Made by a program: the position numbers and the translations under genes. DNA of 64,000 nt from Anastatus disparis (taxonomy: Eukaryota; Arthropoda; Insecta; Hymenoptera; Eupelmidae). The stretch lies in contig JAFFSR010000347.1 in assembly GCA_017163975.1 (NCBI GenBank), positions 10,545,501 through 10,609,500 of the forward strand. The letters are read 5' to 3'. The notes under the pieces are model-generated. The model was not told where the DNA came from. It searched no databases and saw only the letters and a list, made by a program, of their open reading frames with translations. Shown one piece after another: positions 1,200-63,332 of this stretch (position 1 is its first letter; every line of letters starts with the position of its first letter).

Positions 1200-1857
1200 G
1201 AAATTTTCTGGAATTCCTTATGAATTATTCCAATGAAATAATGATATAATCTTTCCCTGAAACATTTCGTGAAAAATTTCCTAAAGATTACTGAAATATT
1301 TCACTGAATATTTTAATATTCAACCCTTCATGGGTAACCTGGGTCATTAATAGAACAAGCCAAATTTTTAGGTCAAATATATCTGGAAATAAAAATCGTT
1401 ATAAACAATTTTGTTTACTAAATAAACTGTTGGATTATAAAGTAGATGCAAAAATGAATATTCCAGAATATTATAAGATTTTTTAACCGGGATTTTCACA
1501 GAGAAAACATCAACAGGACATTAATGACCCAGGTTACCATCTGTGTTCCTGAATATATGGTTACCCACGGAGGGTCAAAGTTTTTGGAAACCTTTTAAGA
1601 AAATATTTATAAAATTTTGTACAAATCTTCGATGTAATATTTCGTTGGAAGATTGCTCTAAACTTTCTGAAAAATATGTTGTGGAAGATTTTCAGAAGAT
1701 TTATGTAATATTTTATTGAACGATTTTAAAGTTTTTTTCAAACTTCTGTGGGAATATTCATAGGACCTTCCCAAAATTTCTTATAAAATATTTCGCTCGA
1801 AGATTGCTCTGATCTCTCTGTGAAATATTATGTGGAAAATTTCCGGAAGACTTATGT
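1200..1857. repeat. AT-rich stretch of degenerate short-word repeats
   Basis: The stretch is full of variants of GAAATATTTC and GGAAGATTTTC on both strands, in the style of the word-repeat foldbacks elsewhere in this window. Outer ends were not found. A smaller foldback (1323-1575) lies inside it. No gene is visible. Confidence 0.45.
1323..1575. mobile_element. Small foldback with ACCCT ends and a CA target duplication
   Basis: The left end reads ACCCTTCATGGGTAACC and the right end is its inverse with three mismatches. A second inverted block, GGTAACCTGGGTCATTAAT, follows inside. The dinucleotide CA flanks both ends (1321-1322 and 1576-1577). The end sequence and 2-bp duplication match the CCCT foldback group described under findings. 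A 2-bp duplication alone is weak proof. Confidence 0.5.
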
Positions 1858-2760
1858 GGCTGATTCCATTCAGATTCATGCAGGCCATCGTGGATCGAAT
1901 CTTTTTCTTAGCTGAAAACTATGTGCATATCGACGACCCGTAAAACGGATAAAAAAATGATAAATGGATGTATACAAAGTATCAATATAATATGCGAACA
2001 ATAATAATGAAATTCAAGCTGTACTACTTTTCGACTGTGGAATATAAGCGGTATTTTTCTTTTTTACTAAAATTTAATGTGAGGTATTTTTCGCCAATAA
2101 TTTTAAAAGTGCTAGTTTTCGTTTGGAAAATTAAAAACGGTAATAGTTTTTGTCCGGAAGTTTCGAAGTATTATTATTCGGCAAAAATGTTCAGGGTGTT
2201 ATTCTTCGTACGAGGCGTCGAAATATTCTTTGAAAAATTTAATAGGTATAAGGGTTAACAGCCGCACTTTTTCGCAAAAACTTTAACAATTTTTAAGGCA
2301 ATTTTAATATTTTCGAGCCATTTATAACATATCTTACATTCGATGTTTTCGCTCAATTTAGGCAAATCAGTTATATCATAAAATTCCATCATTTGACTGG
2401 CTAATTGAGAATTAAATGCATCATTCATTTGCTTTCTTTTGCGAATAGCATACGATTTTCGCATATTTACATTAACAGTTCCCGCATTTCAATAGGTGAA
2501 ATCTTCAAATTCAAATTATTTGTGATTTCGTTAAGCTCATACACTACAATCTCAATGTCATCGATTTTTTCTGAAGATTGTTGATTGCTTGAATTAGATA
2601 AAGAGGGTACCACATTCTTCACTTCTTTCAATAATAATCTATAAAATTCAGTGAAAACTTTATCTTCTCTAGATAGCAAAATCTTTGTATACAAGTGCTG
2701 CAAAACCTCTGTTATATGGCCCAATTTCTTAAATGGATTTTCAGAGGAATGGTACAAAGC
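1858..2760. mobile_element. Decayed second copy of the GGCTGATTCC transposon
   Basis: The terminus GGCTGATTCCATTCAGATTC starts at 1858 and matches the left end of the element at 33314. Further in (2255-2757, minus) is a degenerate piece of the same transposase. The opposite terminus was not found and the middle of the gene is missing, so this is a truncated, older copy. Confidence 0.7.
2255..2757 (-). pseudogene. N-terminal fragment of GGCTGATTCC-element transposase
   Basis: Two minus-strand frames, 2467-2757 and 2255-2464, resemble consecutive parts of the transposase at 34279-36347. Shared blocks include SREDKV and KWLENIKIAL, and RKRKQMNDAFNSQLAS here matches RKRKQINDAFDSQIAS there. The frames differ by one nucleotide, so a frameshift lies near 2465. 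The copy ends where the full gene continues with NFFKEKRLLS. Two cysteines of the CPSC motif in the other copy are replaced here. It is a clear pseudogene of a transposon gene. Confidence 0.8.
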
Positions 2761-2893
2761 TTTTATGTGACCATTGATGATGCTATCTTAAATAACTCAA
2801 AATCTTTTTTTTATTTAATCTCTTCTTATGTATTGCGGTGCGCTGTATGGCTAATGAGTACGCTTGGAGCATGACTTCGATATTTAGCGGCAA

Positions 2894-3499
2894 CCCTAGT
2901 AGAAATATAAAATGTGTATTACTGTTTGAAATAGTTTAAAATTATTTAAAACTATTTAAAAGTGTTTAAAACTGTTCAAGATAGTTTATGAGTGTGAAAT
3001 TTGGAACATTTAAAACAGTTATAAACAGTTTTGAACAATACAGAATAATTTAAAACTGAAGTGAACAATTTCTCGTATGTATTATATAAATTTTAATATA
3101 TATATATAAGAAAATTTTCACAAACGCAAAATTATGAAACACTGTTTGAAATTATTTTGAACTTTTTAAAAGTGTTTAAAAGTGTTTAAAAGTGTTTATA
3201 ATTGTTTAAAAGTGTCTATAACTGTTTAAAAGTGATTAAAACTGTTCAAAACTGTTCAAGTTAATAAAAAATAGTTTATATTGATTTAAAATTGTTTTGT
3301 AATATTTTGAATATTTAAAATAATTTATAACTTTCAAACATAAAAAATTCAAAATTATTAAACACTGTTTGAAATCATTTCGAACTTTTCAAAATTTTTA
3401 AAAATTGTGTTAAATGTCCCAAATTTCACACTTATAAACTGTTTGAATCAGTTTTGAACAGTTTCAAACATTTTTAAACATTTTGTATTTCCACTAGGG
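2894..3499. mobile_element. Word-repeat foldback, word GTTTAAA, CCCT ends, AA target duplication
   Basis: The ends read CCCTAGTAGAAATA and the inverse CCCTAGTGGAAATA. The dinucleotide AA flanks both sides (2892-2893, 3500-3501). The interior consists of dozens of variants of AACTGTTTAAAAGTGTTTAAA on both strands. No coding capacity is seen. Confidence 0.75.
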
Positions 3500-3501
3500 A
3501 A

Positions 3502-4918: not shown

Positions 4919-4924
4919 AGTCTG

Positions 4925-5882
4925 ATGACTAACCGGCACATTAGTGGGGTCACAGAGCTGCACCTCATCCGATCGACGAAGTTAAGAAACGCTGGACGCG
5001 GTCATTACTTGTACGGGTGACAGCTAATGCCTATGCAACTTCGACGATCAATTAGGTGAATTTTCGTTGTCAACAATGTGTACAGTAGGTAAGAGAAAAA
5101 TGTTCTCGGTGTTTACAAAATGTGACATCCCTAACAGCACAAAACGTTTCAAAAACGTTTTACAAACGTTTTCTGGTAAACTTATATACGTTTATAAATT
5201 TCGACAAAAATACGTATTTAAAACATTTTTAAAACGTTAAATATGTCCGCATATTTTAGATTCTCAAGAGTAATGTAACGTTTATGTAACGTTTAAGAAA
5301 CGTTTAGAAAACGTTTTCTCGGTGAAAAAATACGTTGGCTTAAATTTCCAAACGTTTCTAAAACGTTTTTTAAACGTTTTATTTTATCATTCAAAAAAAT
5401 TATTATATAGAGAAAAAATTTTTACCAAATAAAACGTTTTTTAAACGTTAAGGAAACGTTTGGATATTTGAGCTTGCGTAAATTTTCATCGAGAAAACGT
5501 TTTCTAAACGTTTCTTAAACGTTCCATAAACGTTGCATTACTCTTGAGAATCTAAAATATGCGGACATATTTTACGTTTTAAAAACGTTTTGAATATGTA
5601 TTTTTGTCGAAATTTACAAACGTATATAAGTTTACCGAAAAACATTTCAAAAACGTTTTTGAAACGTTTTTGTGTTGTTAGGGATAGACACCGGAGACAA
5701 TTTCGATTTCCGGGTGATGCGATAGCCTGTCGCAGCAACCTTCGGATTCTCGGCCTTAGGTAAAGATCTGGTTAAAAAGGTCCGCTAGGGAGGTTTACAT
5801 CATCGAATAGGGTTGGATCGAAAGGTATAGAAAAGAGGTTGAATGCACCTACTAGGCCAAAAGGCTGTAGGTGGATAAACTT
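4925..5882 (+). mobile_element. 5S-rRNA-like SINE, interrupted by a foldback
   Basis: Positions 4966-5030 resemble the internal promoter region of 5S rRNA: TCCGATCGACGAAGTTAAG, then GCGGTCATTACTTGTACGGGTGAC. The GC-richer tail appears to resume at 5684 and run to about 5882. The foldback 5129-5683 separates the two parts. It lacks the 5' third of 5S rRNA and carries several changes, so it is not a working 5S gene. Outer ends are approximate. Confidence 0.65.
5129..5683. mobile_element. Word-repeat foldback, word AACGTT, CCCT ends, AT target duplication
   Basis: The ends are CCCTAACAGCACAAAACG and the inverse of CCCTAACAACACAAAAACG. The dinucleotide AT is duplicated at 5127-5128 and 5684-5685. 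Nearly all of the 555 bp is built from variants of AAAACGTTT, a 6-bp palindrome with A/T flanks. It is inserted in the 5S-like SINE. No coding capacity. Confidence 0.85.
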
Positions 5883-6440
5883 AAGTACATACGTAATCTG
5901 ATAATTTTATATGCTCATACTTAATCGTCATAAACATAAATATTTTTATTTATATTCTTCCCAACATTTGTAAATTTGAATGAAACAGTTAATTTATAAT
6001 AAGTTATTACTAATAAATAAAAATAAATAAAGATCAGTATAATTATTTTTTTTTATTAAAAAATTGTTCATTGCATACCATTGGAAACTTTTCATAAAAA
6101 TAATATTTAGATAATCAACATAATTCTCAAAAATTTTATTTTTCTATAAAATAAATCTAATTTTCTTAATGCAAAAAGGCAGTTTTATATGATTTTTTAT
6201 AAAAAAAAATTAATTTCCTATATATATTTCTAAGTAATATAATTTTTCTTACATACAAAAATGATATTTATTGAGAAAATAAATTTTATTCTCTCGGTCA
6301 CGAATTTTGGTCAGCAAGGACAAATATTGCGTGAGACTAAGTTTTCGATATAAAACTTAAAAAAAATCTTTGAAAAAAGCTAGGTATGGTATAAAAAAAC
6401 TTGAAATTAATTTTTTAACAAAGGATAAAATATGTAAATA
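5883..6440. other. AT-rich DNA, nothing recognisable
   Basis: Low-complexity AT-rich sequence between the 5S-like SINE and the copia gag relic. No gene or repeat boundary is visible. The copia pol region expected downstream of gag is absent here. Confidence 0.4.
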
Positions 6441-6449
6441 AAAATTCAA

Positions 6450-7238
6450 ATTTTTTTGCCAGAAAAAAAGTTGTAACCACTTTTTTCTTTCTTGTCTTTG
6501 CTTGCGCTCAGGGCAATTTTTCACAACATGTCCTTCGCCTTTGCAGAAGAAACATTTAAATACTTTTGTGCTTTGATTTCCACGTTTATTTTGTCCTTTC
6601 TTATTAGCGTAAGAATTAACATGACATTTTTTCACCATTGTCACTGCAAGAGCCGTGGCTTCCTCCATTTCAAAGTTCAAATATGATTCTTCTTCGATCA
6701 ATCTTTCTTGTAAATATTCGAAAGTTTGTCGATCCCGTGCAACGCTGCTCCACGCTGATCTGAATTTTCTCAATTTTTGTGGTAGACTTGCTAAAATTTT
6801 CGACATCACCATTTCATCAGGAATATTTTCACCAAGATTGAGGAGTTGATGAGCAAGGTTTTGTAACTTGGCTATGTGCTTCATTACTGAATCGTTCGAG
6901 TCCATCCGGTATTCGTGAAAACGTTGGCTCAATAAAAGTTTGAGGGTATTTGACTTTTGCTTGTGCACTGTCGTCAACTTATCCCACATTTACTTCGCTA
7001 ACAAACACTCTAGCTGCTCGTACTCCATTGCTGATGGCATTAAAAACATTGCCTTAGCATTGTTCTTAACCCAGGCTTTAGCCTCGCTGCTTGCAGCATC
7101 GTTAGGTTTAACTCTATCTCCGGTAACTATGTCTAGCAAGTTATGCGACACCAACACGGCTTTTATTTGAAATTTCCATCCTTGGAAATTCTTTTCGTCA
7201 AACTTTGTAACATGACGCGTGGAAATTTCGCCCACCAT
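6450..7238 (-). pseudogene. Copia-type gag (nucleocapsid) remnant
   Basis: The minus-strand frame opens at 7238 (MVGEISTRHVTKFDEKNF), the usual start of copia-type Gag polyproteins with the FxGxNFxxWKFQ region. It continues in the same frame across one in-frame TAA (6990-6992, between LLAK and MWDKL) through the conserved QRF, LPxxL and FEYLQERLIEEE blocks. It reaches a CCHC zinc knuckle, C-x2-C-x4-H-x4-C (CFFCKGEGHVVKNC), at about residues 229-242 of the joined frame. Copia Gag-Pol normally continues into protease, integrase and reverse transcriptase. None of these follows, so the copy is truncated soon after the knuckle. Confidence 0.85.
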
Positions 7239-19486: not shown

Positions 19487-20056
19487 TGTTTGAAAAGTCT
19501 AAAATATTATCATAAAACGAAAAATGCGGCGCGTGGTAGAACTGATGTAAGCATATGGGTATTTTTCCCAAGTGCGAAAGAGAAAGTAATATTAAAGAAT
19601 GACGTTTACCCTGGTGAAAAAAATCAGGTGACAAGTCACCTGATTTAACAGGTGATTTATCATGCCAAAATATCATGTATCGATTTTGTTGGGTTTTACA
19701 CGTTTTAAACCATGCTTAGTCAATTTAGAATAATTTTTGAAAAATTTTGAAATTTTTGAACTTAGAAATTTTTTTGTAAAATTAGTCAAAATTTTTTCAA
19801 AGACGAAATTATCTAAAAAATTTTCTAAGTTCAAAATTTTCCAAAATTTTCAAAAATTGTTCTAAATTGACTACGCATGGTTTAAAATGTGTAAAGACCA
19901 ACAAAATCGTTCCATGATGTTTTGGCATGATAAATCAATTGATAAATCAGATGATTTATCACCTGATTTTTTTTAATAGGTTACACATGCTCACGCCGGC
20001 TCTACTTCGCACTGCATTTTTTCGTTTTATAACAATAATTTAGACTTTTCAAACAA
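19487..20056. mobile_element. Foldback with TCACCTGA words
   Basis: The ends TTGTTTGAAAAGTCTAAA are inverted copies. Inside are several copies of TCACCTGATTTATCA and its inverse, then a central palindrome around GACTAAGCATGGTTTAAA-type sequence. It directly abuts the hairpin at 19314-19484. Confidence 0.7.
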
Positions 20057-21132
20057 GATTATCATCAATAATTATTCTACATATATATGGCTAGTGCCTT
20101 TGACAATATTAGAAGTATATTACTGTTTCGGTAAAATGTAAATCGCTGTGTAAAAAATATTTTATGTTTTTCTCTTACCTAACCGCAGCGCCGCCAAGCG
20201 GCAAATGGTTCCTACCTCCTCTTAAGAGAAGGCTTCATAAATACATTTGCAACTTATTTAACCAAAGTTATGCAAAATAATTTATTTTAAAATTCATAAA
20301 GCTATATCTTATCATGTTATAAACAAATAGGAAAAAAAGATTTACATAATTAACAAAAATCTTTACTATTACCCTGATAGCACAACTTTTTCAATTCTTG
20401 TGCAATTCTGCTGCAATTTCTCTGCCCGTCAGCAAAACTACAGCAGATCTTAACTAACATGCTTCCCATTTCAACTATATTTCTGCGCTAAGATGATTGC
20501 ATCAGGCTCTAAGCATCATAATTACGTTAGACTCACGCAAGCTTTAGTGCACTTACAAGAGGATTTCCAACTGCACTAGAACTTTCAGCAGAATTGCGAC
20601 GAAATTGCATTGGAGCACGTACGTGAGACACTGAGCAGCAGAAATAGATTAACTTGTGCAATTAAGCATGCTTAATCTAAACGATTTGATCACGAGCTCA
20701 GGCGTCAGAATTGCAGCAGTTCCGTGCATCACATCTTTAGCAGATAAATTGCAACATACTTGCGTCAGACTTGCAGCAGCTTTAATGCACTTACAAGAGG
20801 ATGTCCAACTGCACTGGAACTTTTAGCAGAATTGCGATGAAATTGCATTAGGGCACGTACGTCAGACACTGAGCAGCAGAATTAGATTGTCTTGTGCAAT
20901 TAAGCGTGCTTAATCTAAATAATTTGATCACGAGTTCGGGCCTCAGAATAGCAGCAGCTTCATGCATGGCATCTTTAGCAGATTAATCGCAACATACTTG
21001 CCTTTCATAAGTATACTGCAATTCTGCTGTAAGCATCCATGCATCACACGATGTTCCTGGCTGCACTTTGTCTGCTGTAAGTATACATCAATTCTGCTGC
21101 GAAGTGTCAGCTGCACGATGCCTTTCATAAGT

Positions 21133-23845: not shown

Positions 23846-24162
23846 AAGTATAGTGCGATTCTGCTGCAAGCATCCGTGCATCATACAATGTTCCTGGCTG
23901 CACTTTGTCTGCTGTAAGTATACATCAATTCTGTTGTGAAGTGTCTGCTACACGATGCCTTTCATAAGTATATTGCAATACTGCTGCAAGCATCCATGCA
24001 TTAAATGTTTCTCTAGACTTCACTTCGTCTGTCGTAAGTCTGCTGGACATCTGTTGCAAGTACCTGATGCAATGATCTGACTGCATAACTCTAAAAGATT
24101 TGGGTAGCATGTTATATAAGATCTGCGCACTGATACTTGCGTCAAATTGTGCTACCAGGGTA

Positions 24163-39425: not shown

Positions 39426-40208
39426 TTTTCCTTTAAATGGAAAATGATTATCATGTAAAGTCATTTTTCAATGACATAATTAATGAAAAATGACGTTATT
39501 TTCTCCTAAATTTGGAGAAAATGACGTTTTTGAAGACGTCTTTGGTAGTGTCTGAAATTGGAACAAAAAAGACGTCATTTTTCCAATGTTTAGAACAGCT
39601 ATTTAACAAATAACGTCTTTTTACATTTTCAAAGACGTATTTTTTTTAATAATAATACGTCTTTTTATAATTTCGAAGGCGTATTTTTTAAATAAAAATT
39701 CGTAAGAAAAGACGTATTTTTTAAATAAAAATTCGTAAAAAAAGACGTTTTTTTTAAATAAAAATTCGTAAGAAAAGACGTCATTTTTATTAAAAAAAAA
39801 TACGTCATTGAAATAATAAAAAGACGTCATTTGTTGAATAACTTTTCTAAACATTGGAAAAATGACGTCTTTTTTGGTTCCAATCTAAGACACGATCAAA
39901 GATGTCTTCAAAGACGTCTTTCAAAGATGTCTTTCAAAGACGTCTTAGAAAGACGTCATTATTTTCAACAGGAAAGACGTCATTCGTTTTAAAAAAAGAA
40001 TTTTTTTTTGAAAATTTACGACTTTTACTATGAGTATTTATTGGAAAAATACGTCTTTGAAATTATTTTACTTATAAAAAAGGCGTAATTTGGTTACTAT
40101 ATTTCCGGAACATTAAAAAAATGGCGTCTTATTTTGTTCCAATCTAAGACACGACCAAAGACGTCTTCAAAGACGTACTGGAAAAATGTCATTATTTTCA
40201 ACAGGGGA

Positions 40209-40665: not shown

Positions 40666-41439
40666 GATCCTGTTGAGAATAAGTACGTACTTCAAGTATG
40701 TACTTTGAGTATGTACTTTACTTAAGTAAGTACTATTTTGGAACATTTCAGTAGGTACTTTTTTGAAAAGTATATACCCATACAGCATGAAAGGACTTTG
40801 AAAAGATTCTAAAAGGATTCATGAAAGGACTACAATCTTTCAGAAACATATCACTGAAAGGATTCTGAAATAATTCTATGTCCGAGGTATTATTCTTTTA
40901 AAAATAATACAAAAAAATATTTCATAAAGAATTCACAAGACATTTCAAAATCCTTTCAATGAAAGAATTCTGTAAGGCTCCATGAATTCTTTTGGTAATA
41001 ATTCGTAAATCTCTTCATACATCTTCCATTGAAAGGATTCTGTAAGAATGATATGAAATATTTTTAAAATATTTCATTGTATTATTTCTAAAAGGAATAT
41101 ACCCTGGACATAGAATTATTACAGAATCCTTTCGGTAAGGATCCATGAATTCTTTTGGTAATAATTCGTAAATCTTTTCATACATCTTCCATTGAAAGGA
41201 TGCTGTAAGAATGATATGAAATATTTTTAAAATATTTCATTGTATTATTTCTAAAAGGAATATACCCCGGACATAGAATCATTACAGAATCCTTTCAATT
41301 AAAGAATTCTGTAAGGATCCATGAATTCTTTTAGTAATAATGCATTAATCTTTTCATATATCTTTAGTTGAGAGACGTGTAAAAGTTGTAGAAACTTTAT
41401 TCTTTCCTGTATTATTTAAGAATCAATTTAGAATTAATA

Positions 41440-41490
<51 letters not shown>
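41440..41490. repeat. TA microsatellite
   Basis: A run of about 24 AT dinucleotides near the presumed middle of the foldback before the array expanded. Confidence 0.95.
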
Positions 41491-41492
<2 letters not shown>

Positions 41493-41744
41493 CATATATG
41501 ATAATATAATTATTTATAGGGTTCCGAATAGTTTTACAGCGGTTAAAATCGAAGTTATCATAACACAGACATCGCACGCATAACAATTTATAGTTTCCAT
41601 TTTAGATTCTTATTTTCCTTATATATGAAACGGGAAGCACTCTTACCGCTTGCGAGAGTAAGAGATACCACCATCAAGCGGATAAATTATAAACTAATCC
41701 CGAAAATATTTCTAAATGATTCTGTTATATTTCACGTTTTCTTT

Positions 41745-44030: not shown

Positions 44031-44569
44031 AATATTTCATGTCTTAACTTTCGTTTCCTTTTTGGTATTGTTTTTGTAAAGACTTTGTAATCCTCCTGTG
44101 TATTATTTCATAAATTCTTTTCAAAAGAATATAGTTATCTTTTTAAGTTTTTTTTAAATGCTTTCAACGTATTATTATTTGTAATATTTCATGAAATTAT
44201 TTCAAAATTTTTTCATGCTGTGTGGGTACTTTTATCAAAAATATGTACTTTTTAAGTATATTTTGATAAACAATATTTCTTAAAGTATGTACTTTATTAG
44301 AAAATATGTATTTTTTAAAGTAAATACTCATTAAAAACATTTTGGTAGGTACTTTTTAAAAGTATATACTTTTCAAAAAGCACGTACTAAAGTTTTCTAT
44401 ATAAGAACGTACTTTTATTAAAATAGAGTACATCCTTTTAAAAATATAAATTAAATTCTACAGAAAAGTCAGTAAAAGTTTTAGATTGATTTTATTTTAA
44501 ATAATTTCTCAAGTTAATAACTTGGTAATTATTTTGTTCCTAAAGAAAGATATAAATTAAGGTAAGCAT

Positions 44570-44830
44570 CGACTCTCCGCAGACCGAAGAGCTTGAGCGA
44601 ACAAACTCGAAATGTTATAACCTTATGTACCCGCATCACTGAAATTCGGGTAAGGAATCGCAGAATTAAGAAAAACGCCATCTAACAGTTAAAGAGAGAT
44701 TTACTAGTTGATTCCAATAATTTTTTCAGTACCTACGTTTTTAACTGTTAGGTGGCGTTTTTCTTAACTTTGCGATCCCTTATCCAAATTTCAGAGATGT
44801 AGATATGTAAGGCTATAATATTCCGTATTG
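44570..44830. repeat. Hairpin core related to that of the GACGTC foldback
   Basis: AGAAAAACGCCATCTAACAG and its inverse with TTAGGTGGCGTTTTTCTT form the stem. The right half (TTGCGATCCCTTATCCAAAT, then GTAGATATGTAAGGC) matches the core at 39,085-39,425 with substitutions. The surrounding arm words here are GTACTT, not GACGTC. Confidence 0.75.
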
Positions 44831-45334
44831 GTTTACAGTTGAAAATCAGTACATACTTCAATTACATACTTCGAGTATGTACAATTTGATTAGGTACGTA
44901 TTTTTTTGGAACATTTTAGTAAGTACTTGTTTATAACATCTTAATAAATACTTTTTTTGAAACATTTTAGTAGGTACTTTTTTGGATCATCTTAATAACA
45001 ACGAATATAGACGCTTATAGAAGCATACTTTTAAATGGGAATTTTCTGCCAAAAATGAGTTAGTTCTGTTACCCAGCTACTTGGGGACGCTACCAAATCT
45101 CATGTATTTTTATATCTATATATAGCACATTTTTCATATGTATAGATATACAAACAATGTTAAAGTGTTACCCAGGCTTTCGGACTGAAAATGTAACCCA
45201 GAAGAATCCTTCTATAAGTACTTTTTTGGAACATTTTAGTACGTACTTTTTTTAGAAAAGTATGCACTCTTCCAAAAGTAAATTTTAAAGTTAAAAAAAA
45301 AATTTACTCACTGTAGCTTAAGTATATACTTTTA

Positions 45335-45780
45335 TATGAAGGTACATTTGGCGGGAAGGATATTTTTCCGAATGTTAACCTTAAATGGCAACATCGCATA
45401 TTTTACCACAGACATAAGACGATTCCAAATAATAGAACAAATTTCACTTCATCGTTACTTATTAATTAATGACACAATTGTAGAAAACAAACAATATTAC
45501 TTTTTTTTCATGATCTGAATTACAATTTTATGAAATGAAATTTTTATTTCTCAATTCAATAATCATATACAATCTAATATTGTCAATTTAAATTATCTTT
45601 GTAATAAAATTTTAGTTGTTATCATTAATAACCTATATGAAAAAAACAAAATAATCATGATGTGAAACTTAATGCATGATTCGAAGTTCTCTTACGTCTG
45701 TGGTAAAATATGCAGCGCTGCCATTTGAAGTACACATTCAGAAAAATAGCCTTTCCGCCAAGTGTACATACTTCGTATAA
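45335..45780. repeat. Second hairpin core in the GTACTT foldback
   Basis: The arms pair GGCGGGAAGGATATTTTTC with its imperfect inverse and TTTTACCACAGACATAAGA with its inverse. The small plus-strand frame 45336-45518 is accidental. Confidence 0.6.
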
Positions 45781-45893
45781 AAAAGTATGTATCAAAATGT
45801 TTTAAAAATTATATACTTCTATAAAAGTAAGTACTTTTATTAAAATAGGGTAAATACTTTTCAAGAAAGTACTCACTTTTAAAATAAAAGTAC

Positions 45894-46278
45894 TGTTATG
45901 TTTTATATTTCTTTTGAAAAGTAATAGACCGTTAATTATTGTTCTAAGAAACAGGACAGTGGGATTATGCTTAGAAAATCACTCTCTTTATTTATTTAAA
46001 ATATGAAATAATAATTTATTGAAGTAAAGTAAACTATTAGAATTACAAAGAATAAATAAGATTACAAACTATTTTGCGTTTAAATAAAGGAATCTTAACG
46101 TCACTTAGACAAAATTAAAAACGTAAGTCAAAACGCAGCTAGCTGCCTAATCACACTCTCAGAACTCGTTCACGTCTGTTCTTATTTCACGCGTTTCGTC
46201 CTCTGACTCGTATCGTTAAGAGAATCTATATTTATACTAAAAGGAAATAGCGCCATCTATGATTTAGATTATATAACA
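45894..46278 (-). repeat. 3' LTR of the gypsy element
   Basis: 385 bp, TGTTA...TAACA ends. It carries AATAAATAAA on the minus strand as a likely poly(A) signal. It differs from the 5' LTR at two sites, near 45963-45966 (GTGGGATT here, GTAGGGTT there). Confidence 0.95.
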
Positions 46279-46290
46279 TTCGGCCTTCCT
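46279..46290 (-). promoter_or_regulatory. Polypurine tract of the gypsy element
   Basis: The minus strand reads AGGAAGGCCGAA directly before the 3' LTR. It is the expected position for plus-strand priming, though interrupted by two C bases. Confidence 0.5.
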
Positions 46291-46426
46291 GATATTGTTT
46301 GGTCCCCAAACATCAAAATTTTAAAACAGTAGTATAATAAAGTATTACATAATGCTAAAATTCACAGTTGTAAATTACATTTTAATTTCAAACAAAATCT
46401 TTTAAATAAACTGTTGGTCGAACATT

Positions 46427-49400
46427 TCACTTAGGTCGCTCGTTAACATTTAATGTCGCTTCTACGATTTTCCTATCACGCCTTTTGACAATAGTTTTTG
46501 ATTCAATAGAATTAGAATCACTTGAATCAGATTCGACCTGATCATCTTCTTCAGCTTCTTCCGTGTTTGAGCCAGTCCAAATTTTTAACTGACTAATGTG
46601 TGCTGTTGTAGAATATCCTCTATCACCTGATTCATTGAGTTTCTTTACACGGTAAGTATCGCTGGGTCCTACACCTACGATAGCTAGAGGTCCACCAAAA
46701 GCTGATTGTAATTTTGTTGAATGTCCAGTGGATATGGGATTTTTCTGCATAAAGTTAATATCTCCAACGTGTAGCTTTTCATGTAACCTTCTATTTTCAT
46801 CATAGCGTTGCTTATATTTCTCTTGCTCTGCTATTATTCGGTCTCTGATCTGAGACTGCACTTCACTTGGATGTGTGTAAGTTTAACAATTTTGAGTTAA
46901 TTTAAGTAGTTCTCCTTCTTCGAAGCGTGGTAAGTAACCTAATAAAGCTTCATAAGGGGGTTTACCTGTGGCTGTACTAATAGTTGAATTAATATCTCTT
47001 TCAATTCTTTTAATTTTAGCATCCCAATTTTGTTCGTTATTTTCTACTGAAATTTTCATTGCTGTTAACAAGGTTTGGTTCAATCGCTCAATTAATCCAT
47101 TGGCTTGAGGATGTCGACTAGAATTTAAAGTATAAGAAATTCCATGCTTTAAACAAAATTTTTGAAAATCATGACTAGTTAAACTAGATCCTCGATCAGA
47201 AACAATTCTTCCTGGAGCACCAAATCTAGATACAAAATCTTCAAACCCTTTTACAGTATGTAAAGCTTTTACACTCTTGACAGCATAAATAACAACAAAT
47301 TTTGTTAAATTATCGATAATTCCAAGTACATATTGATTTCCTTTTTTGGTCATTGGAAAAGGTCCTACGTGATCCGTATGAACTAAATCAAATGGACGTC
47401 GACCCGGAGGTATTGGATGTAATTCACCTTGGCCTGGTCCTGACTTTTTCTTCGCTAAAATACAACTTAAACAATTTTTAATATGAACGCGTACATATCT
47501 TCGTAATCGCGGAAAATAATAATACTGTTCAATACTTTACGCTGTCTTTTCGACTCCAAAATGACTTTTCAAATCATGGTAACGAATAACTAAAGATTTA
47601 CGCATAGCATTAGGAACCACGAATAATAATCTTTCTTTATCATCGCGTACTACACGTTTATACAATAATCCTTCTTGTGAAATAAAATTATTAACTTTAT
47701 TGGTTTCTATCTTATCGCGATCGTTTTCACTCTTTTGTGAAATATTTAAAATTTCTAAAATTGCAGGATCAGAACGCTGATAGACAAGTACTTCATCTTC
47801 ATTTGTATCTATAACTGTAATTAAATTATAATCTAATATTGTAAAAACTGCATCAGTTTCAATTGGAGCACGAGATAATGCATCGACATGTTGCATAGAT
47901 TCACCACTCTTATGTTTTATTTCTAAATCAAACTCTGCAATTTCGCTCATCCATCTCGATATCTGAGAATTTTTAGTTTTCCAAGCATTCATGTGAATCA
48001 AATTTTTACAGTCAGTATAAACAACAAATCTTAACCCTATAAGAAATGAACGTAGACGTTCTAACGCCCATGCTATAGCTAAAAGTTCGAGTCTGCCAGA
48101 ATGATATTTAGATTCAGCATCAGTCGTACAACGACTAATCGCATAAACTAATCGCAAAGCTTCACCTTCGTTATCGCTTTGAAGCATCATTGCACCTAAT
48201 CCTACAGCTGACGCATCTGTGTGGAGCTCTGTTTTATATGCTTTTGGATTATACAATTTTAATATAGGCTTCGAAACAAGTTTTGATTTGATTTCTTGAA
48301 ATGCATTGCTTTGCTCAGAAGTCCATTCAAATTTTATATCATTTTTCAAAAGTTTAGATATAGGTCTAACAATCATAGCAAATTTAGGTACAAATCTTCT
48401 AAAAAAGCTAGCTAAACCAAGAAATCGCCTCACTTCATGTTTATCTTTCGGACTAGGAAAGTCTTCAATGACAGAAATTTTCCTATTACCCGGTTTTATT
48501 ATTCCTTCTCCCAAAATATAACCTAAATATTCTATTTGACGCATGCCAAATTTACATTTTTCAAGATTTAATGTCAGACCAGCATCGCTTAAAAGTTTTA
48601 AAATATATTCTAAATTATTCATTAATGTATTCCATTCACTAGCATAAATACATATATCGTCAAAGAAGTTAAAAGCTAGTCCCTTTTTACGCGCAATACC
48701 TAATACAGAATCCATTAGTTTAGCAAAATACCGCGGAGCATTAGCCAAACCGAATATCACTCTCTCGAATCTACCTGTTTGAGTCTCTGTAATAAAGGCT
48801 GTTTTATCCTTCGCTTCGTCTGCTAGCGGCATTTGTAAATACCCCGATGCGAGATCTAACGTAATAAATAAACATGCACCGTTTAACTGCTCAAGTAAGT
48901 CATCAAAATTCGGTATAGGATAAGGTATAATTTTCGTTACACTGTTAAGCTTACGATAATCAACTACCATACGCGGGCTTCCACTTTTTCGTACAATAAA
49001 TGCCGGACTCGCATAACTTGAATCAGTATCTGTAACTCTGCCGTCCAAAGTATAAAAGTGGTTAACTACATTGGAATCCCATTGGAGTTAAGGTTTTCTT
49101 ACTTTGGACGGCAGAACTATACCCGCTTGTCTGTATTCATCAATAATTTTATTTAAATTGTCTCTATCGCGCGTATTTAATCTATAAGGTTTTGATTGAA
49201 CAATAGCGTCTTTATCAGTTTCTATATTCATATTTATTTTATCAGTAAGTCCTAAATCAGAAATATTTTTCGAAATACAATGTCTATATTTACTTAATAA
49301 TTTAACTAATTCATTCTTTTGTTCGTCATTTACATTTTTATCGACTATAACCTTATCGTTACTTACACATTCAGACCGTGCCTTAATTTCTTTCATTTCT

Positions 49401-51130
49401 TCAATAGCCTGAACAGATTCACAAATTTTGTCATTTATTTTTATTGAATGAGGTTTCGTATCGTAATTTATAACAGGTAATACTCTTTTATTGTTACTTA
49501 CAGCAACATTTATAAAATTAACTGAATTAGGTTCACATTCGACGTTTTCTAATGAACGCGCTTTGATAGTTGTCTTATTATTAAAATTACTTGTATCAAT
49601 ATTTGCAAAGATTAAATCATTACCGTAACGCGTATATGTAATATCCGATGCCTCCGTAAATGGCCTCCCTAAGATTATATCGTACTGTTGCGTAGTATCA
49701 GGTACTACTTTAAAAGAAACAACGCGTGGCTTTAAGTTATCGAACTGAACCGTTTCGTTTACTATCCCAAATGACTCGACTGTATTACTACCAAAACCTT
49801 GTAATATAGAGCGTGCGGATGTTATAACAAAGCCCTCACGAAGCACAGCAGTTGCCTTAATCGTACATATAGATGCACCCACGTCTATTTGTACTACAAA
49901 ACAGCTCGATCCTACTTTAATTTCACGTATAAATTTATCTCCTAACCTAGGCAAAGTTTCAGTGTTAACAACCTTAACTTCTTGTATTTTAACATTCGAA
50001 CTATTATCACTAGTGCACGATACATTATTTTTGTTATTACAACGCGAAGCTACATGACCCGGACGTTTACAAATATAACACGTAAATTCTTTCTTCGCTT
50101 GTGTACACTCACGAGACATATGTCCTCCTTGTCCGCAATTATAATATTTTAATGTACCAATCGTTCTGGCTTTCGCTGTATCTGTTGTAAATGTCTTCTG
50201 TGTAGCACGACCTGTAGCTCCTTCTTGTGTTGGTAAAGTTAAAGCAAGTGGCGCCATCTTTCTTTCTGCTAAACGCCATGAATTTATGTTGCTCGAATTT
50301 TTGTTGTTGAAATGCGTATCACTCGAAAATTTTTTTTGATTTCGTTGGTCGTAACTTCTTTCTCGTCGATCCTCATAAATTTTATCAACGCGTATTAGAT
50401 CTTGCAACATAGAATCTGTACTAGTATAGTCACGACCTACCATATAATGCGCCAAATCACGTGAGCATAAACCGGCTGCTACCTCATCGCGCACTTCATT
50501 TACCGTAAAATCTAAACCTTAACACAACCATATTTTATTCAGAAAATAATCTTGAATACTCTCTTGCGGTTTTTGTGTGCGAGCGGCCATTGCCTTCAAA
50601 ATTTCACTTCGTGTACGTACATAAGTAAATGTAGCATTAAGAGCCGTTTTAAAATTTTCAAACGTCGTAATCGAATTGCCTTTAGTCATAAGCCATTTCC
50701 AAGCGCCTCCTTGTAAGCGAGATTTTGCCATACTCAGCGCTACTGCATCACTCCATTGATACAATGTTACCATATTCTCAAGTTCTTTAAGCCATAAACG
50801 TGCCTTCTCTGGTCCTTCATTGCCATGAAATTCTCTTACAACATTATGAATATTCGCGAACGGAATATTCATAATGTTGTTCTGATTAACATCTTGATTT
50901 GCGTGTTGATGTCTTAATGTCTCACTTAAAGAACTAATGGCTTGTGCTAACAATATTTGACTTTCATCAGCAGTTCCCTGACCATTTTGAGAAAATCGCG
51001 CCTCGTTTGCACCATGTTGCCGTACTGTATTTTGCAATTCTTCTATCCGCGCTTCAAGCGTTGCTCGCTCCTCACGACGACGTTCCTTTTGTTTTTCGAT
51101 TTCCGCTTTCAATTTCTCTACTTCACTCAT
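46427..51130 (-). pseudogene. gag-pol: gag-pol polyprotein of the gypsy element, broken by in-frame TAA codons
   Basis: One minus-strand frame of 1,568 codons opens with MSEVEKLKAEIEKQKERR (coiled coil) and ends in TGA at 46427-46429, with no frameshift. It contains Gag, two CCHC knuckles (first one lacking its first Cys, YNCGQGGHMSREC; second intact, CYICKRPGHVASRC, about codons 351-364), protease (DVGAS instead of D-S/T-G, codon 416), reverse transcriptase with LDLASGY and FFDD in place of YLDD (codons 822-825), RNase H, and integrase with its zinc region and D-D35-E (SDRG at 1312, E at 1348). Premature TAA codons lie at 50519-50521 (gag), 49088-49090 (inside a 77-bp insertion), 47537-47539 (integrase zinc region) and 46883-46885. 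As it stands it cannot make a full polyprotein without readthrough. Confidence 0.93.
49038..49114. mobile_element. 77-bp foldback inserted in reverse transcriptase, AACT target duplication
   Basis: The ends are perfect 15-bp inverted repeats, CTGCCGTCCAAAGTA, and AACT is duplicated at 49034-49037 and 49115-49118. The interior also pairs, so the whole is one hairpin. Insert plus duplication is 81 bp, exactly 27 codons. It keeps the frame but introduces a TAA between QAGIV and RVTDTDSSYASP of reverse transcriptase. It is too small to be anything but non-autonomous. Confidence 0.9.
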
Positions 51131-51359
51131 TGTCTATATTTGAGTATTAACACAACTTCAATAAAAAAAATTTTTTTCGGTAACCAAAAGTTCTCTTATA
51201 AGTCCATCTCAATTTTGCATAACCGCCATTTACCTCCCCCCGTTTCTGAGAATACTATCGACAAAACTAAATTCTTCGGAACTAAAGTTTTTTTTTTTTT
51301 TTTGTTTAATTATTTATTTCACTTATCTATCACTTTTCTTTCACTAAATTAATACAACA

Positions 51360-51480
51360 CCTTTCTGTTTATATCTTAATCAAAACTTTTTCGTCTATAT
51401 TTTAATCAAAACTTTTCTGTCTATATCTTAATCAACACTTTTCTGTCTATATCTTAATCAACACTTTTCTGTCTATATCC
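51360..51480. repeat. Tandem ~28-bp repeats in the gypsy 5' leader
   Basis: Four to five units of the form CTGTCTATATCTTAATCAACACTTTT lie between the primer-binding site and gag. They could affect packaging or translation (inference). Confidence 0.85.
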
Positions 51481-51489
51481 CACTTCTGA
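51477..51489 (-). promoter_or_regulatory. Gypsy primer-binding site, tRNA-Leu, offset from the LTR
   Basis: The minus strand reads TCAGAAGTGGGAT. This is complementary to the 3' acceptor/T-arm part of eukaryotic tRNA-Leu as I remember it (...ATCCCACTTCTGA-CACCA). The match starts 6 bases from the LTR and does not cover the final CACCA. An offset or internal Leu primer is plausible for mdg3-like elements. Confidence 0.65.
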
Positions 51490-51495
51490 TTTATT

Positions 51496-51880
51496 TGTTA
51501 TGTTTTATATTTCTTTTGAAAAGTAATAGACCGTTAATTATTGTTCTAAGAAACAGGACAGTAGGGTTATGCTTAGAAAATCACTCTCTTTATTTATTTA
51601 AAATATGAAATAATAATTTATTGAAGTAAAGTAAACTATTAGAATTACAAAGAATAAATAAGATTACAAACTATTTTGCGTTTAAATAAAGGAATCTTAA
51701 CGTCACTTAGACAAAATTAAAAACGTAAGTCAAAACGCAGCTAGCTGCCTAATCACACTCTCAGAACTCGTTCACGTCTGTTCTTATTTCACGCGTTTCG
51801 TCCTCTGACTCGTATCGTTAAGAGAATCTATATTTATACTAAAAGGAAATAGCGCCATCTATGATTTAGATTATATAACA
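51496..51880 (-). repeat. 5' LTR of the gypsy element
   Basis: 385 bp with TGTTA...TAACA ends. On the minus strand a TATAAATATA box (51829-51838) lies about 43 bases inside the upstream end, a good candidate for the promoter. Confidence 0.95.
51829..51838 (-). promoter_or_regulatory. TATA box of the gypsy LTR promoter
   Basis: The minus strand reads TATAAATATA within U3 of the 5' LTR. The same box is in the 3' LTR at about 46227-46236. Confidence 0.6.
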
Positions 51881-53230
51881 GTACACATAGAAATGTTTTT
51901 AAAAAGTACATACTTTCAAAATAGTACGTATTGTCTAATAAAGTACATATTTAAAAAAATATTATTTATCGAAATATATTTGAAAAGTACATACTTTCGC
52001 CAAAAGTATCTACTAAAATGTTCGAGAATAGTTCGTATTTAAGTAAAGTATATAGTTGAAGTACATACTTAAAGTAAGTACTTAAAGTACGTACTTGAAG
52101 TACGTATTTATTTTCAACAGGGGAATTAGTTTTTATTGAAGTTTCATACTCAACAGCGCCGCAATAAGTATTACATAGGTACTATGTTAGCATAAGATAA
52201 TTTAGTACTGAAAAATTTGGTACCATACCAAATATTTCTTGGGACAAGTCGTGTTAAAAAATGTACTAATATAGGTCGTCTTAAAATATATACTGACAAG
52301 GAAGGGACCCCAGGTGTACCTCATCGAATTTGATCATTTTATGATATGTTGTAGTACTCGAGAAGATTTTAGACATGTGTTTTTCTTACGTGCTAACTCG
52401 TCGATTTAAGGAGTGAAAATCACCCCTGAAGTTTGCTCCCAAAAACGGGTTTTTCCTAATATCTCAATAACTATTTGGAGTTTTTAAATAAAACCAACGC
52501 CAAATTCTTTATTATAAAAAGATGTTACTATAGGCATTATTTTTATCCCGAAGGGTGTCAATCCCTATTTTTTTTAGGGGTAAATGTGCAATTTTTTGCT
52601 ATTTTTTCAATATAATATTGATCAAATCGGCTAGATTTGGTTAAAAATTGCACTACCATTAAGAAAATAAAAAATTAAAATAAACGTATTTCGAGATTCA
52701 CGAAGAAAAAATTTTTTTTCTTGATTGTTTCACCCTTGAGGTCATTTTTTAATTTTATCCAAAATTATATTCTTGAATTATTTTTAAATTTTTTAAATTT
52801 ATTTATAGATTTACACATTTATTGTATATTTTTTAATTTTTAATAAAACAACATTGAATATCGATGAAAATCATTTCATTTTACAATTAATTATTGCAGG
52901 TCTGAAATAAATTTAAATTTTTAACTCTTGTGTAATCAATTTTATTTCGAATACATTCTACAAACTTATAATATTACAATTATTTAGAACATGCAATTTA
53001 TGTGTAGTATATCGTAATTGAAAATTGCATTATTTCCTTAATTGTTATCAAGGATCATAAGTAGAACAATAATGATAATCATCAAAAAAGTGTTTCAAAC
53101 ATAAAGATTTTTTACACCATGAACATCGAACAATTGCGACATTAGAGCACCCTGTAATTTCACAAAGTATATTAGATTGTGATCTAAAAGCAAAATTTAC
53201 TGGATTTTCAAAATTTTCAGGGTGAACATC

Positions 53231-54632: not shown

Positions 54633-55445
54633 CACGGAGAAGGTTTTGCATCATAAGCGATGGTACGCTTTTAAAACCCCTACTGAAAAAAATCTTGTGG
54701 TAACCACATGACATACTATATGGTTTTCACATGGTTACCACATGTTTACCACATGGTTACCACATATTATTTTGACGGGGTGATCATGTGGTAACCATGT
54801 GGTGACCTATGTGAAAACTCATGTGAGTAAAAAAATAGTTAAAAAAATATGCAAAATTTATTATTTCACGTAATAAATACTCACCTGCTGTCAAAATCAG
54901 CAAACTAAAGAAAATTTTTATGAAAATATAAATATTATTGATTATTTTCATAAAAATTTTCTTTAGTTTGCTAATTTGACAGCAGGTGAGTATTTATTAC
55001 ATAAAATAATAAATTTTGCATATTTTTTTTAACTATTTTTTTCTTACTCACATGGTTTTCACATGATCACCACGTGGTTACCACATGGTTACCACATGAT
55101 CACCCCGTCAAAATAATATGTGGTAACCATGTGGTAAACATGTGGTAATCATGTGGTAACCATGTGAAAACCATATAGTATGTCATGTGGTTACCACAAG
55201 ATTTTTTTCAGTAGGGACGGGCCGAAAGGTGGCTCGCATTAACGATAAATATCGATGCGTGTCTAAACAAGCATGAAATTTTTCGATGTGGCGCCACCTC
55301 GCGCACTGTATTTCGACTTATGCACGAGAAAAAGTGATGCATGAATTATGAAATACGAAGCAGCATGCGTGATTTACGATGCAAAAGGCATCGCTTTTTC
55401 TAGTGCATCGCGCATCATGTTTGTTGAGGCAAAACTCTCTCGGTG
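54633..55445. mobile_element. CACGG-ended foldback with TG target duplication
   Basis: The ends CACGGAGAAGGTTTTGC and the inverse of CACCGAGAGAGTTTTGC are flanked by TG (54631-54632, 55446-55447). Removing it with one TG copy joins the transposase codons in frame (Q-S-L-V-H-D-Q-L), which confirms both ends. Its arms contain GCATGATGC words. It contains the foldback 54678-55216. Confidence 0.9.
54678..55216. mobile_element. Word-repeat foldback, word GTGGTAACCAC, CCCTACTG ends, AC target duplication
   Basis: The ends CCCTACTGAAAAAAATCTTG are inverted copies, flanked by AC (54676-54677, 55217-55218). Each arm holds about ten CATGTGGTAACCATGTG-type words followed by an AT-rich stem. The two arms are almost identical, indicating a young element. 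Confidence 0.9.
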
Positions 55446-59365: not shown

Positions 59366-59369
59366 TTAA

Positions 59370-59735
59370 GAAGGGGCCGAACTATCTGTCTTTGTCTAAT
59401 AGCGTTTTTCATCATTTATGTAAACACTATCCGGTATAACAAGAAAAAAATAGCAGCCCCTGCTAGATATTAGTATGATTAGTAAATTTTGTAATAACAA
59501 CCAAATTTTTTACCGCATAGTTTTTGACTAATTAGAGACCTACTAACAATATCATTTTTTGGTAGGTCTCTAATTAGTCAAAAACTATGCGGTAAAAAAT
59601 TTGGTTGTTATTACAAAATTTACTAATCATACTAATATCTAGCGGGGGCTGCTATTTTTTTCTTGTTATACTGGATAGTGTTTACATAAATGATGAAAAA
59701 CGCTATTAGACAAAGACAGATAGTTCGGCCCCTTC
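59370..59735. mobile_element. TTAA-type MITE (GAAGGGGCCG ends)
   Basis: TTAA flanks both ends (59366-59369, 59736-59739). The element is an almost perfect 366-bp palindrome, nearly the same as 32925-33305. The minus-strand frame 59632-59814 crosses its end and is accidental. Confidence 0.92.
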
Positions 59736-59739
59736 TTAA

Positions 59740-60680: not shown

Positions 60681-60939
60681 ATTCAGCTGGAAAGAGGAAG
60701 TCTAGCTGGAATTTCTGCTGGTGCTCCAACTAAAACTTGTATTTTTAGAAAAGCTACAGTTACGATATTTAGCTGGATATCTGGTTGAATATTTAGCTTA
60801 GCACAAGTTGGATACCGAGCAGTATATATTTCTATTAAATTTAATGATATGTAGGTGTAATTTTATTATCACTATTAGATTATTTTTTTAAATTACAACT
60901 TTGCAAATTAATAAATTGATAATTATTTTGCTGTTAAAT

Positions 60940-61280
60940 GAAAGACCCAGAACCAGATAAACTTTATAGAGTCAACTCTTCCAAGAACAAAAAACTTATA
61001 CGATTGAACTCAGATAATTCTGACCGTATACATTTGAATCTTCGAAATTTGTATAAGGGGTAACAGAAGTTAGATAATTGCAACCTAGTGATTTCAAGTC
61101 AAACCGATGCACTCGATCATCAATAGCAAATTTAAAAAGTGGCGTTTGTCTAAGTACTGTCATTTCTTGTAGAATTTTCGAAGACACAGATATATGAGGC
61201 CCGAATACTCCCAGTTGTATCTTGAAAACTTTTCGTTTTTTGAAGAACTGATACTACAAGGTTTGTCTCATTTTCGGTTT
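60940..61280. repeat. Hairpin core related to those at 39,085 and 44,570
   Basis: Shared blocks in the same order include ATTGAACTCAGATAATTCTG, GAAATTTGTATAAGG, CACAGATATATGAGGCCC and CGTTTTTTGAAGAACTGA. Stem pairing is weaker here, so this is an older copy. Confidence 0.7.
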
Positions 61281-61484
61281 CTCCTTATAGAAAGTAACTA
61301 TTGGGATATAATTTAATAAAGTTACAATTTAGAAGAATATTCTGATGATAATAACGAAATAATAATATCTTGATATCCTCAACTGTAGTAGCAATACACA
61401 CATTTATGTAGTACCAACACAGTTTTTGAATAGTAAGAGCTACAGATATTTTTTGTGATGAATTATGGCAGGTTTGAATATCTA

Positions 61485-63332
61485 CCCTGGTAACACAATC
61501 TGTTGCAAGCTCGATTGCGCAGAACTTGCGTGGTCTGTTTCCACATTTTAATGCATATCTGCTGAAATTTAATTGCGACTGAAACGTGCGTCAGATTTGT
61601 AACAGATTGCCAATCGAAACGTGCGATTCTAAGATGAGAATAAACACGCAAACTTGCAGCAGAATCGAAGCAGTCTTTCGTAAGAATCTTGCAGCAGCAC
61701 TTTACCCCAGAATTACATAAGAATGACATAAGTTGAGCGCAATTATATGACGAGAATAAACACGCAAACTTGCAGCAGAATCGAAGCAGTCTTCCGTAAG
61801 AATCTTGCAGCAGCACTTTACCCCAGAATTACATAAATATGACAAAAGTTAATTGCAATTATATGACGAGAATAAACACGCAAATGTCAGCAGAATCAAA
61901 GCAGTTTTATGTGAGAATCTTGCAGCAGATTTGCGCTAAAATTACATCAGAAGGACAAAAGTTAAATGCAATCTTATCATAAGAATAATCATGTGAGCAT
62001 ACAGCTTACTTGAAGTTATCTCGCATAAGAATCTTGCGATAAAACTTTACTACAGAATTACGTATGAATGTAGAACCAAAATATTTATCATCTTTTACTG
62101 ATAGAAATTTATTTAAAACTTTTCTTAGATATTATAAAAATTTTTTATCTACGTTTATTATATTTTATAGTTGGCTTCAATGGTCTCCTCTCTTCTCCCC
62201 AATGTTTACATGTATATAATTTTATACTATAACATCAGTGCCCACCCCTTTGTGTATATATGTTGATTGTTTTTTGCGTTCCTTCTTTTTCTTTTAGCCA
62301 ATATGTGCCTATAGGTGTAGGCATCGGTAGTAGGAACACGTAAAGTTTAAAGAAATGCATTAAATGTATCGCAATTATAAATTATTATATTTTCATTAAA
62401 TTATAAATTATAATTTTTAAATTCAACATTTGCTTTCTTCAAATCTGTCAACAAGTCTTATGAACATGTTCTCGCAAGATTCTTATGCGAGATAACTTCA
62501 AGCTGCATGCTCACGTGATTATTCTTATGATAAGATTGTATTTAACTTTTGTCCTTCTGATGTAATTTTAGCGCTAATCTGCTGCAAGATTCTCACATAA
62601 AACTGCTTTGATTCTGCTGTACATTTGCGTGTTTATTCTCGTCATATAATTGCAATTAACTTTTGTCATATTTATGTAATTCTGGGGTAAAGTGCGGCTG
62701 CAAGATTCTTTCGGAAGACTGCTTCGATTCTGCTGCAAGTTTATGTGTTTATTTTCGTAACATAATTGCACTTAACTTGTGTCATTCTCGTGTAATTCTG
62801 GGGTAAAGTGCTGCTGCAAGATTCTTACGGAAGACTGCTTCGATTCTGCTGCAAGTTTGCATGTTTCTTCTCGTCATATAATTTCACTTAACTTTTGTCA
62901 TTCTTATGTAAATCTGAGATAAAGTACTGCTGCAAGTTTCTGATGCAAGACTGTTCCGATTCTGTTATATGCTTGTGTACTTATTATGATTCGCAGAACA
63001 GCACTTGACAATTTGCAATTCTTACGTAATTGTGCTGCAAAACTTTGTCGAAAATCATTTACTTAATTTGGTTGCTAGTGTCTTTAATAAGTTTTTTCCG
63101 CAAGTTTACTGCAAAATATCTTCAAGATTCTGCGCATTCTTTCCGTCCCGTAGATTGCACTTTCTCTCTGCCAGAAACATGCAATTCTGTTGCACTTATC
63201 TGCTGTAATTTCTTTTCATAAAAAACCCTATGAAATGCGGAAACAGACAGCACATGTTCTGCTGCAATTTTTTGATTTTCAAGAAAATTGCAGCAAAATT
63301 GCAACAAAATTGCGTTGACCATGTTACCAGGG
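61485..63332. mobile_element. Word-repeat foldback, word TTGCAGCAGAAT, CCCTGGTAAC ends, TA target duplication
   Basis: The ends CCCTGGTAACACAAT and the inverse of CCCTGGTAACATGG share nine bases, flanked by TA (61483-61484, 63333-63334). The left arm has tandem units of about 120-130 bp (CTTGCAGCAGAATCGAAGCAG), mirrored in the right arm. The centre near 62,400 is AT-rich. Ends and words match the element at 20372-24160. Confidence 0.85.

Follow-up and report, generated by a model that had tools for sequence, protein, structure and literature searches.

Foldback elements with word-rich arms in Anastatus disparis are probable non-autonomous relatives of animal CACTA transposons

What are the ten foldback loci recognized in a 64,000-nucleotide stretch of the genome of the hymenopteran Anastatus disparis, and what moves them? 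The stretch, referred to as a whole as the window (C340:10545501-10609500), belongs to the 939-Mb assembly of 399 contigs in which the genome searches were made. The original prediction, made from the letters of the window, was that the loci share CCCT-like ends, sit in 2-base-pair (bp) duplications of varied sequence and have arms made of many copies of one palindromic word that differs from element to element, and that they follow a rule known from no described family. The window loci are transposable elements. Very likely they belong to the animal (TRC) branch of the CACTA/EnSpm superfamily as non-autonomous DNA transposons, moved by the Transposase_21 (tnp2) of relatives. Confidence in this explanation is reduced because no window family is directly tied to a transposase gene.

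Boundaries in the window and across the genome

The two flanking bases are identical at all ten loci (CA, AA, AT, TA, AT, GA, GA, TA, AC and TA), and the dinucleotides of the window lead to an expected chance match of 0.087. The match does not extend: none of the ten agrees over 3 to 6 bp, and when the boundaries are shifted by 1-4 bases, matching flanks remain at 0-2 of 10. The loci had been picked partly by their flanks, and scans confined to the window were unconvincing. Inverted end pairs with equal flanks numbered 37, compared to 30 in a displaced control, and CCCT was not the outstanding end word by rate (6 of its 15 pairs were equal-flanked, and several words scored higher). The proof must therefore rest on genome copies, which are the fair test. 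The scans count in favor of an explanation by chance and AT-rich composition, in which the palindromes are unrelated and their ends and flanks accidental.

Genome searches with DNA queries were answered for two window families, 54678-55216 and 61485-63332, and in both the boundaries coincide in the genome copies. For 54678-55216, 40 places were scored of 181 candidates. Thirty loci were fetched, and the window copy (L001), a locus in which no end pair was found (L007) and a locus with the same flanks as L008 (L014) were dropped. A 2-bp duplication is present in 22 of the remaining 27 usable independent loci, with TA, AT, TT, AC, GA, AA, GC, CA and TC all represented. For 61485-63332, the 40 scored places of 857 candidates include 13 other full-length copies with 98-100% identity. 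In a query with 100-bp flanks, where the element spans 101-1948, matches to these copies start at positions 92-101 and finish at 1948-1954, no more than 9 bases from the ends of the element. The high identity and coinciding boundaries indicate that the copies are recent and share the same boundaries.

A third set of copies was drawn by pattern. The pattern CCCTNNTGAAAATAA occurs 3340 times in the genome, versus 49 occurrences of the reversed pattern, and 11 of 17 plus/minus end pairs drawn with it (4/7 and 7/10) have a 2-bp duplication. Two of these 11 pairs (L076/77 and L114/115) sit at one target site, and three of the six misses have one end within an outer GACGTC arm. The predicted duplications of varied sequence are thereby borne out inside and outside the window. 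Copies with the same boundaries, together with the insert-free sites described below, refute the chance explanation, which is close to impossible.

The ends vary among the loci. Six loci have CCCT at both ends, 40777-44226 has CCCA at both ends, 40668-52122 has TCCT and CCCT, and 30647-31946 has CCTT at both ends. The CCC start that marks animal CACTA (TRC) elements is therefore present, as CCCT or CCCA, at both ends of seven of the ten loci and at one end of an eighth; 30647-31946 and 1323-1575 depart from it, the latter because its register only works with ACCC first, not CCCT. Pairwise identity among 23 ends averages 0.76 over bases 1-5, 0.42 over bases 6-10 and 0.58 over bases 11-15; two of the ends (those of L083 and 30647-31946) were compared with a one-base offset. 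After base 15, identity is 0.26-0.32 per five-base block up to base 60, which is background. Further inside, the arms repeat a family-specific word, and the claim that the words change between elements more than the ends do holds in outline.

The window elements are listed below. The boundaries of the ten predicted loci have equal flanks, but one locus is a doubtful member and two elements had been overlooked.

1323-1575: short, doubtful member; ends ACCCT...; words GGTAACC/GGTTACC; CA flanks
2894-3499: non-autonomous CACTA-like element; ends CCCTAGTAGAAATA; word TTTAAA; AA duplication
5129-5683: non-autonomous element; ends CCCTAACAGCACAA; word AACGTT, 21 copies; AT duplication
19609-19981: overlooked element; ends CCCTGGTGAAAAAAATCAGG and ACCTATTAAAAAAAATCAGG; word CACCTG; TA flanks
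20372-24160: non-autonomous element; ends CCCTGATAGCACAA and CCCTGGTAGCACAA; words GCAGCA/CAGCAG; TA duplication
26535-28591: overlooked element; ends CACTGAGAAAAATGTCTG (CACTG); word TAGTAA; TA flanks
30647-31946: non-autonomous element; ends CCTTACTGAAAATAT; words ATGAGA/ATCTCA; AT duplication
37997-40206: non-autonomous element; ends CCCTGTTGAAAATAATGACGT; word GACGTC, 22 copies; GA duplication
38647-39973: inner portion of the GACGTC element 37997-40206, bounded by relic TCCTGTTGAAAATAA ends
40668-52122: element; ends TCCTGTTGAGAATAA and CCCTGTTGAAAATAA; word GTAC; GA duplication
40777-44226: nested element; ends CCCATACAGCATGAA and CCCACACAGCATGAA; word TTCATGAA; TA duplication
54678-55216: non-autonomous element; ends CCCTACTGAAAAAAATC; word GTGGTAACCAC; AC duplication
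61485-63332: non-autonomous element; ends CCCTGGTAACACAA and CCCTGGTAACATGG; words GCAGCA/TTGCAGC; TA duplication

The element at 40668-52122 is interrupted by the nested element 40777-44226 and by Ty3/gypsy-like sequence; Ty3/gypsy-type pieces lie inside 46427-51130 on the minus strand. A copia-type gag open reading frame (ORF) is located at 6357-6989. Pfam searches with 5 of the 11 listed window ORFs revealed no transposase, and Rfam at gathering cut-offs gave no match in the window. The overlooked element 26535-28591 contains a 5S-like stretch and a nested palindrome. By eye, 5S rRNA-like stretches occur at ~26690-27030 and ~4930-5070 and are perhaps short interspersed elements derived from 5S. 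A separate inverted-repeat element at ~33313-37423 has TGGCTGATTCCATTCAGATTCATGCAGG ends, a piece of which recurs near 1856, and holds two minus-strand ORFs (35097-35609 and 35616-36347) without a Pfam match. Near-perfect palindromes with TTAAG(A)GG-like ends are present at 38061-38450, 32921-33309 and 59366-59739 in the window and, elsewhere in the genome, at L040:244-850 and L064:2080-2460. They are often nested inside other elements and perhaps form a TTAA-targeting foldback family.

Transposase genes and a coding sister element

A search of the genome with the Transposase_21 (tnp2) model gave 148 matches, 147 of them over the cut-off, among the 150 scored of 245 candidates. The matches include open frames of up to 898 amino acids, and none of 14 control genomes was matched. 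Among 120 listed of 213 relatives of a transposase from this genome, the named ones are mostly from Hymenoptera, with some from thrips, mealybug and fish.

One of these genes lies in an element with both ends located, the C14 element. The gene, at locus L064, has a 748-amino-acid open frame that matches Transposase_21 (E 2.8e-12) and DUF1258, and it is followed on its 3' side by a TATGCA-rich arm terminating in CCCTTACGAAAAA. In a genome search with the arm region, arm matches stopped at the terminus (query position 1479) twice and at 1482 once. One arm match, in inverted orientation 18.9 kb further left on the contig of L064, is the other end of the element. The sequence flanking L064 is another abundant repeat, and 13 matches to it start at 1480. 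The left end reads CA followed by CCCTTACGAAAAAAAGG and the right end reads CCTTTTTTTCGTAAGGG followed by CA; the two arms share 96.4% identity over 334 bp. An uninterrupted, insert-free target site is present in five copies of the flanking repeat, which have a single CA there in four cases and AA in the fifth. The stretches of the C14 element that were read are 976504-976904 and 984500-995377.

A second Transposase_21 gene, at L063, encodes 732 amino acids and a protein 56% identical to that of L064. It is followed by an array with 44 copies of CTGCAG in 2061 bp that terminates in the same CCCTTACGAAAAA. Elsewhere in the genome, the L063 arm is found in pairs that form short elements of ~1.4 kb; the one that was read has AT on both sides. 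By eye, 11 arm matches start exactly at the terminus (query 145), another 8 begin 11 bases beyond it (134), and matches to the flanking repeat stop at 144 in 8 cases. The other ends of L063 and L064 were not found in the stretches adjoining them; that of L064 was located later by the genome search. A second element with paired ends, on C209 at ~82627-104628, has TA on both sides.

Other Transposase_21-like sequence lies in longer repeats. L040, L041, L042, L044 and their neighbours are 99.3-99.6% identical beyond the roughly 12 kb read, and a comparison of L040 with L041 gave no element ends, since identity continues past that length. The repeats of the L040-L044 group hold two Transposase_21-like stretches in opposite orientation, and a nested short element at L040:446-659 has CACTGTTAAAAA ends, a one-base variant of the CCCT end, and TA flanks. 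At L062:5952-8901, a foldback directly follows a Transposase_21 gene. Its arms, 250 to 553 bp, are 100% complementary, and it reaches the end of the stretch read.

Several observations weigh against assigning the window families to this transposase, in addition to the window scans and the misfit at 1323-1575 described above and the palindrome counts given below. No Transposase_21 gene was found between the ends of any window family, or with such a family's own ends and word; a transposase gene between ends of this kind was found in a sister element with CCCTTACGAAAAA ends. The two transposase-linked CCCTTACGAAAAA ends differ from the window ends within the first 15 bases. The C14 element is the sole transposase-bearing element with both ends read, and it was covered in the two stretches given above. 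The C209 element is absent from the Transposase_21 list, for which 150 of the 245 candidates were scored. An inverted arm 60 kb off on the L063 contig was rejected as the partner of L063 due to its flanks (TA versus AT). Finally, no word-binding protein was identified, and no model search for a candidate was made.

The window families could instead belong to a distinct superfamily that supplies its own transposase, in which case their CACTA/TRC-like ends would be convergent. The lack of a Transposase_21 gene found between window-family ends and the partial agreement of those ends with the two transposase-linked ones favor such a superfamily, but the CCC start, the length of the duplication and the architecture are all as in the C14 element. 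Published elements, considered here and below from the accessible portions of the cited papers, also argue against it. Animal CACTA elements termed TRC have Transposase_21, CCC ends and 2-bp flanking repeats (DeMarco et al. 2006, PMC1636069). The terminal inverted repeat (TIR) of the Tribolium TRC element is printed as CCCTAGTAGCACCGAATATTTGTAAAA (PMC1636069). Its start, CCCTAGTAGCAC, resembles the CCCTRRTAGCACAA ends of the window (the AGCAC class) and nearly matches those of 5129-5683 (CCCTAACAGCACAA), 20372-24160 (CCCTGATAGCACAA) and 61485-63332 (CCCTGGTAACACAA). A separate superfamily is very improbable.

ISL2EU, which had been named with CACTA as a comparison, does not fit. ISL2EU, of the PHIS group, makes 2-bp duplications as found here, but these are AT only, and its ends usually begin with GG; its proteins are a DDE/THAP transposase and a YqaJ protein (PMC4482050). 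With varied dinucleotides and CCC ends in the window, movement by ISL2EU or another PHIS group is barely credible, a judgment made on ends and duplications, with no search of the genome for ISL2EU genes. The IS481EU group does not fit either and was rejected. The comparison with CACTA holds, specifically with the TRC branch.

Words and doubled segments in the arms

The word rule of the original prediction holds in outline and extends to further words. AACGTT (21 copies), GACGTC (22 copies) and TTCATGAA (10 copies) are each confined to one window element. The assignment of one word per element is less strict for the others: TTTAAA is enriched in 2894-3499 and GTAC in 40668-52122, but both are present elsewhere too, and GGTAACC occurs in two window elements, 1323-1575 and 54678-55216. 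Two assignments fail. CATATG has just 2 copies in 30647-31946, where ATGAGA and ATCTCA are commoner, and GCAGCAGAATTGC has 1 exact copy in 20372-24160 and 0 in 61485-63332, which instead share GCAGCA/TGCAGC words. Ends drawn by pattern outside the window gave words absent from the prediction, including CTGTAG/CTGCAG, CCCATATGGG and CTTACG.

Palindromy is likewise a property of some words. A clear palindromic core is present in AACGTT, GACGTC, TCATGA, TTTAAA, GTAC and CTGCAG, but the words of 1323-1575, 20372-24160, 54678-55216 and 61485-63332 are repeated in both orientations and are not perfect palindromes. Subterminal repeats in both orientations are a feature of the CACTA superfamily. Strict 8-bp palindromes have a density of 7.35 per kb in the arms versus 3.19 in the remaining window; they are clearly above shuffles in 3 of 14 arm sets (5129, 37997 and 40777) and weakly so in L063. 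Ranked by Poisson z, the leading tetramer is a palindrome in 2 of 19 arm sets, and the leading hexamer likewise in 2 of 19, compared to 56 and 14, respectively, of 200 control pieces. This statistic is biased against palindromes, since other words are counted on both strands.

The arms also hold signs of how they may have grown. Relic ends at 38647 and 39973 divide the outer from the inner arm of 37997-40206, and the two arms are 79% alike over 123 columns. The CCCTNNTGAAAATAA family has at least 13 same-strand doublets, 221-270 bp apart, counted by eye among the places listed. The original prediction was that arms may grow by copying a short dimer-binding site inwards from the terminus; the relic ends and doublets in the GACGTC family point to duplication of a segment of ~220-270 bp that includes the terminus.

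It is conceivable that the words have no function and are satellite-like arrays that expanded neutrally within CACTA elements. Strict palindromy in some words only, the doubled terminal segments and the lack of an identified binding protein are consistent with neutral expansion. However, both arms hold words beside the ends in otherwise unlike families, and subterminal repeats of plant CACTA elements are bound by TNPA-type proteins and required in cis (PMC2613891). We consider functionless words unlikely, though well within reason.

The favored explanation entails the following mechanism. Transposase_21 from rarer, larger relatives very likely cuts the conserved end of ~15 bp beginning with CCC(T). 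Insertion at CCC ends with a 2-bp target duplication is shown here, as is a tnp2-type transposase gene between such ends in one sister element; enzymes of this class would move the window families. By analogy to plant En/Spm, in which TNPA or TNP1 bind the subterminal repeats (PMC2613891), the transposase would read the conserved end, and a fast-changing DNA-binding function that varies with the word would read the word. The reader could be a second protein or part of the transposase. Many word copies in both orientations may help bring the two ends together, and a protein that binds as a symmetric pair would be well matched to the palindromic core present in about half of the words. The foldback arms may be binding arrays that became larger, at least in part through doubling of the terminal segment.

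Described relatives and what the families offer

The prediction that the window holds an undescribed kind of element is not sustained. The ends, the length of the duplication and the transposase fit animal CACTA (TRC), and plant CACTA shows the same pattern of TIR and subterminal repeats. The TRC elements SmTRC1 and those of Tribolium and Aedes have CCC ends and 2-bp flanking repeats in common with the window, and Transposase_21 in common with the genome; the accessible text describes no palindromic-word foldback arms or series of word families, and gives one internal repeat motif for SmTRC1 (PMC1636069). Spongebob/EnSpm-4N1_HM of Hydra and insects is alike in its CCC ends, 2-bp duplication and assignment to CACTA, and unlike in its end, CCCAGCCAACATTGAC; word arrays are unmentioned in the portions available (PMC4298943). 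CMC (CACTA) miniature inverted-repeat elements of wasps and polydnaviruses are also small, non-autonomous CACTA elements with a 2-bp duplication. In contrast to the window elements, they have CAC ends and no autonomous partner was found for them, and the accessible text does not mention word arrays (PMC6004678).

Plant CACTA elements (En/Spm, Tam1 and soybean Tgmt*) resemble the window elements in that the TIR is conserved while the subterminal motifs vary by family and occur in direct and inverted orientation. They also have non-autonomous derivatives and a tnp2 transposase (PMC2613891). Unlike the window elements, they have CACTA ends, a 3-bp duplication and motifs of 12-20 bp that are not called palindromic in the text available, and a separate DNA-binding protein is known for them, with none identified here (PMC2613891). 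The window loci, with CCC(T) ends and no match over 3 bp at any of the ten, do not have the ends and duplication of plant En/Spm. In the accessible open-licence literature, with Repbase outside its scope, no animal CACTA element with palindromic-word arrays as foldback arms was found. Already in print are the superfamily itself, its CCC end and 2-bp duplication, and the combination of a conserved TIR with variable subterminal repeats. Possibly new are the scale, the foldback arms and the presence of palindromic cores in roughly half of the words.

We tentatively suggest, as a possibility only, that one transposase lineage uses a two-part address: a fixed cut end of ~15 bp and an exchangeable, often self-complementary word. 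Families would arise by switching the word together with its DNA-binding module and retaining the end, giving a dozen or more mutually insulated CACTA families in one genome. If so, the L063 and L064 transposases, which share the same 13-bp end CCCTTACGAAAAA and have the words CTGCAG and TATGCA, respectively, would be a snapshot of a word switch.

The results caution against naming such foldback elements a new superfamily. How quickly subterminal repeats co-evolve with the proteins that recognize them was left as an open question (PMC2613891). The genome of A. disparis is suited to this question, since its numerous CACTA-type families have related ends but sharply different words that are easy to read. 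Word class can be compared with transposase sequence across at least 147 matches over the cut-off, and one family has 13 full-length copies that are 98-100% alike.

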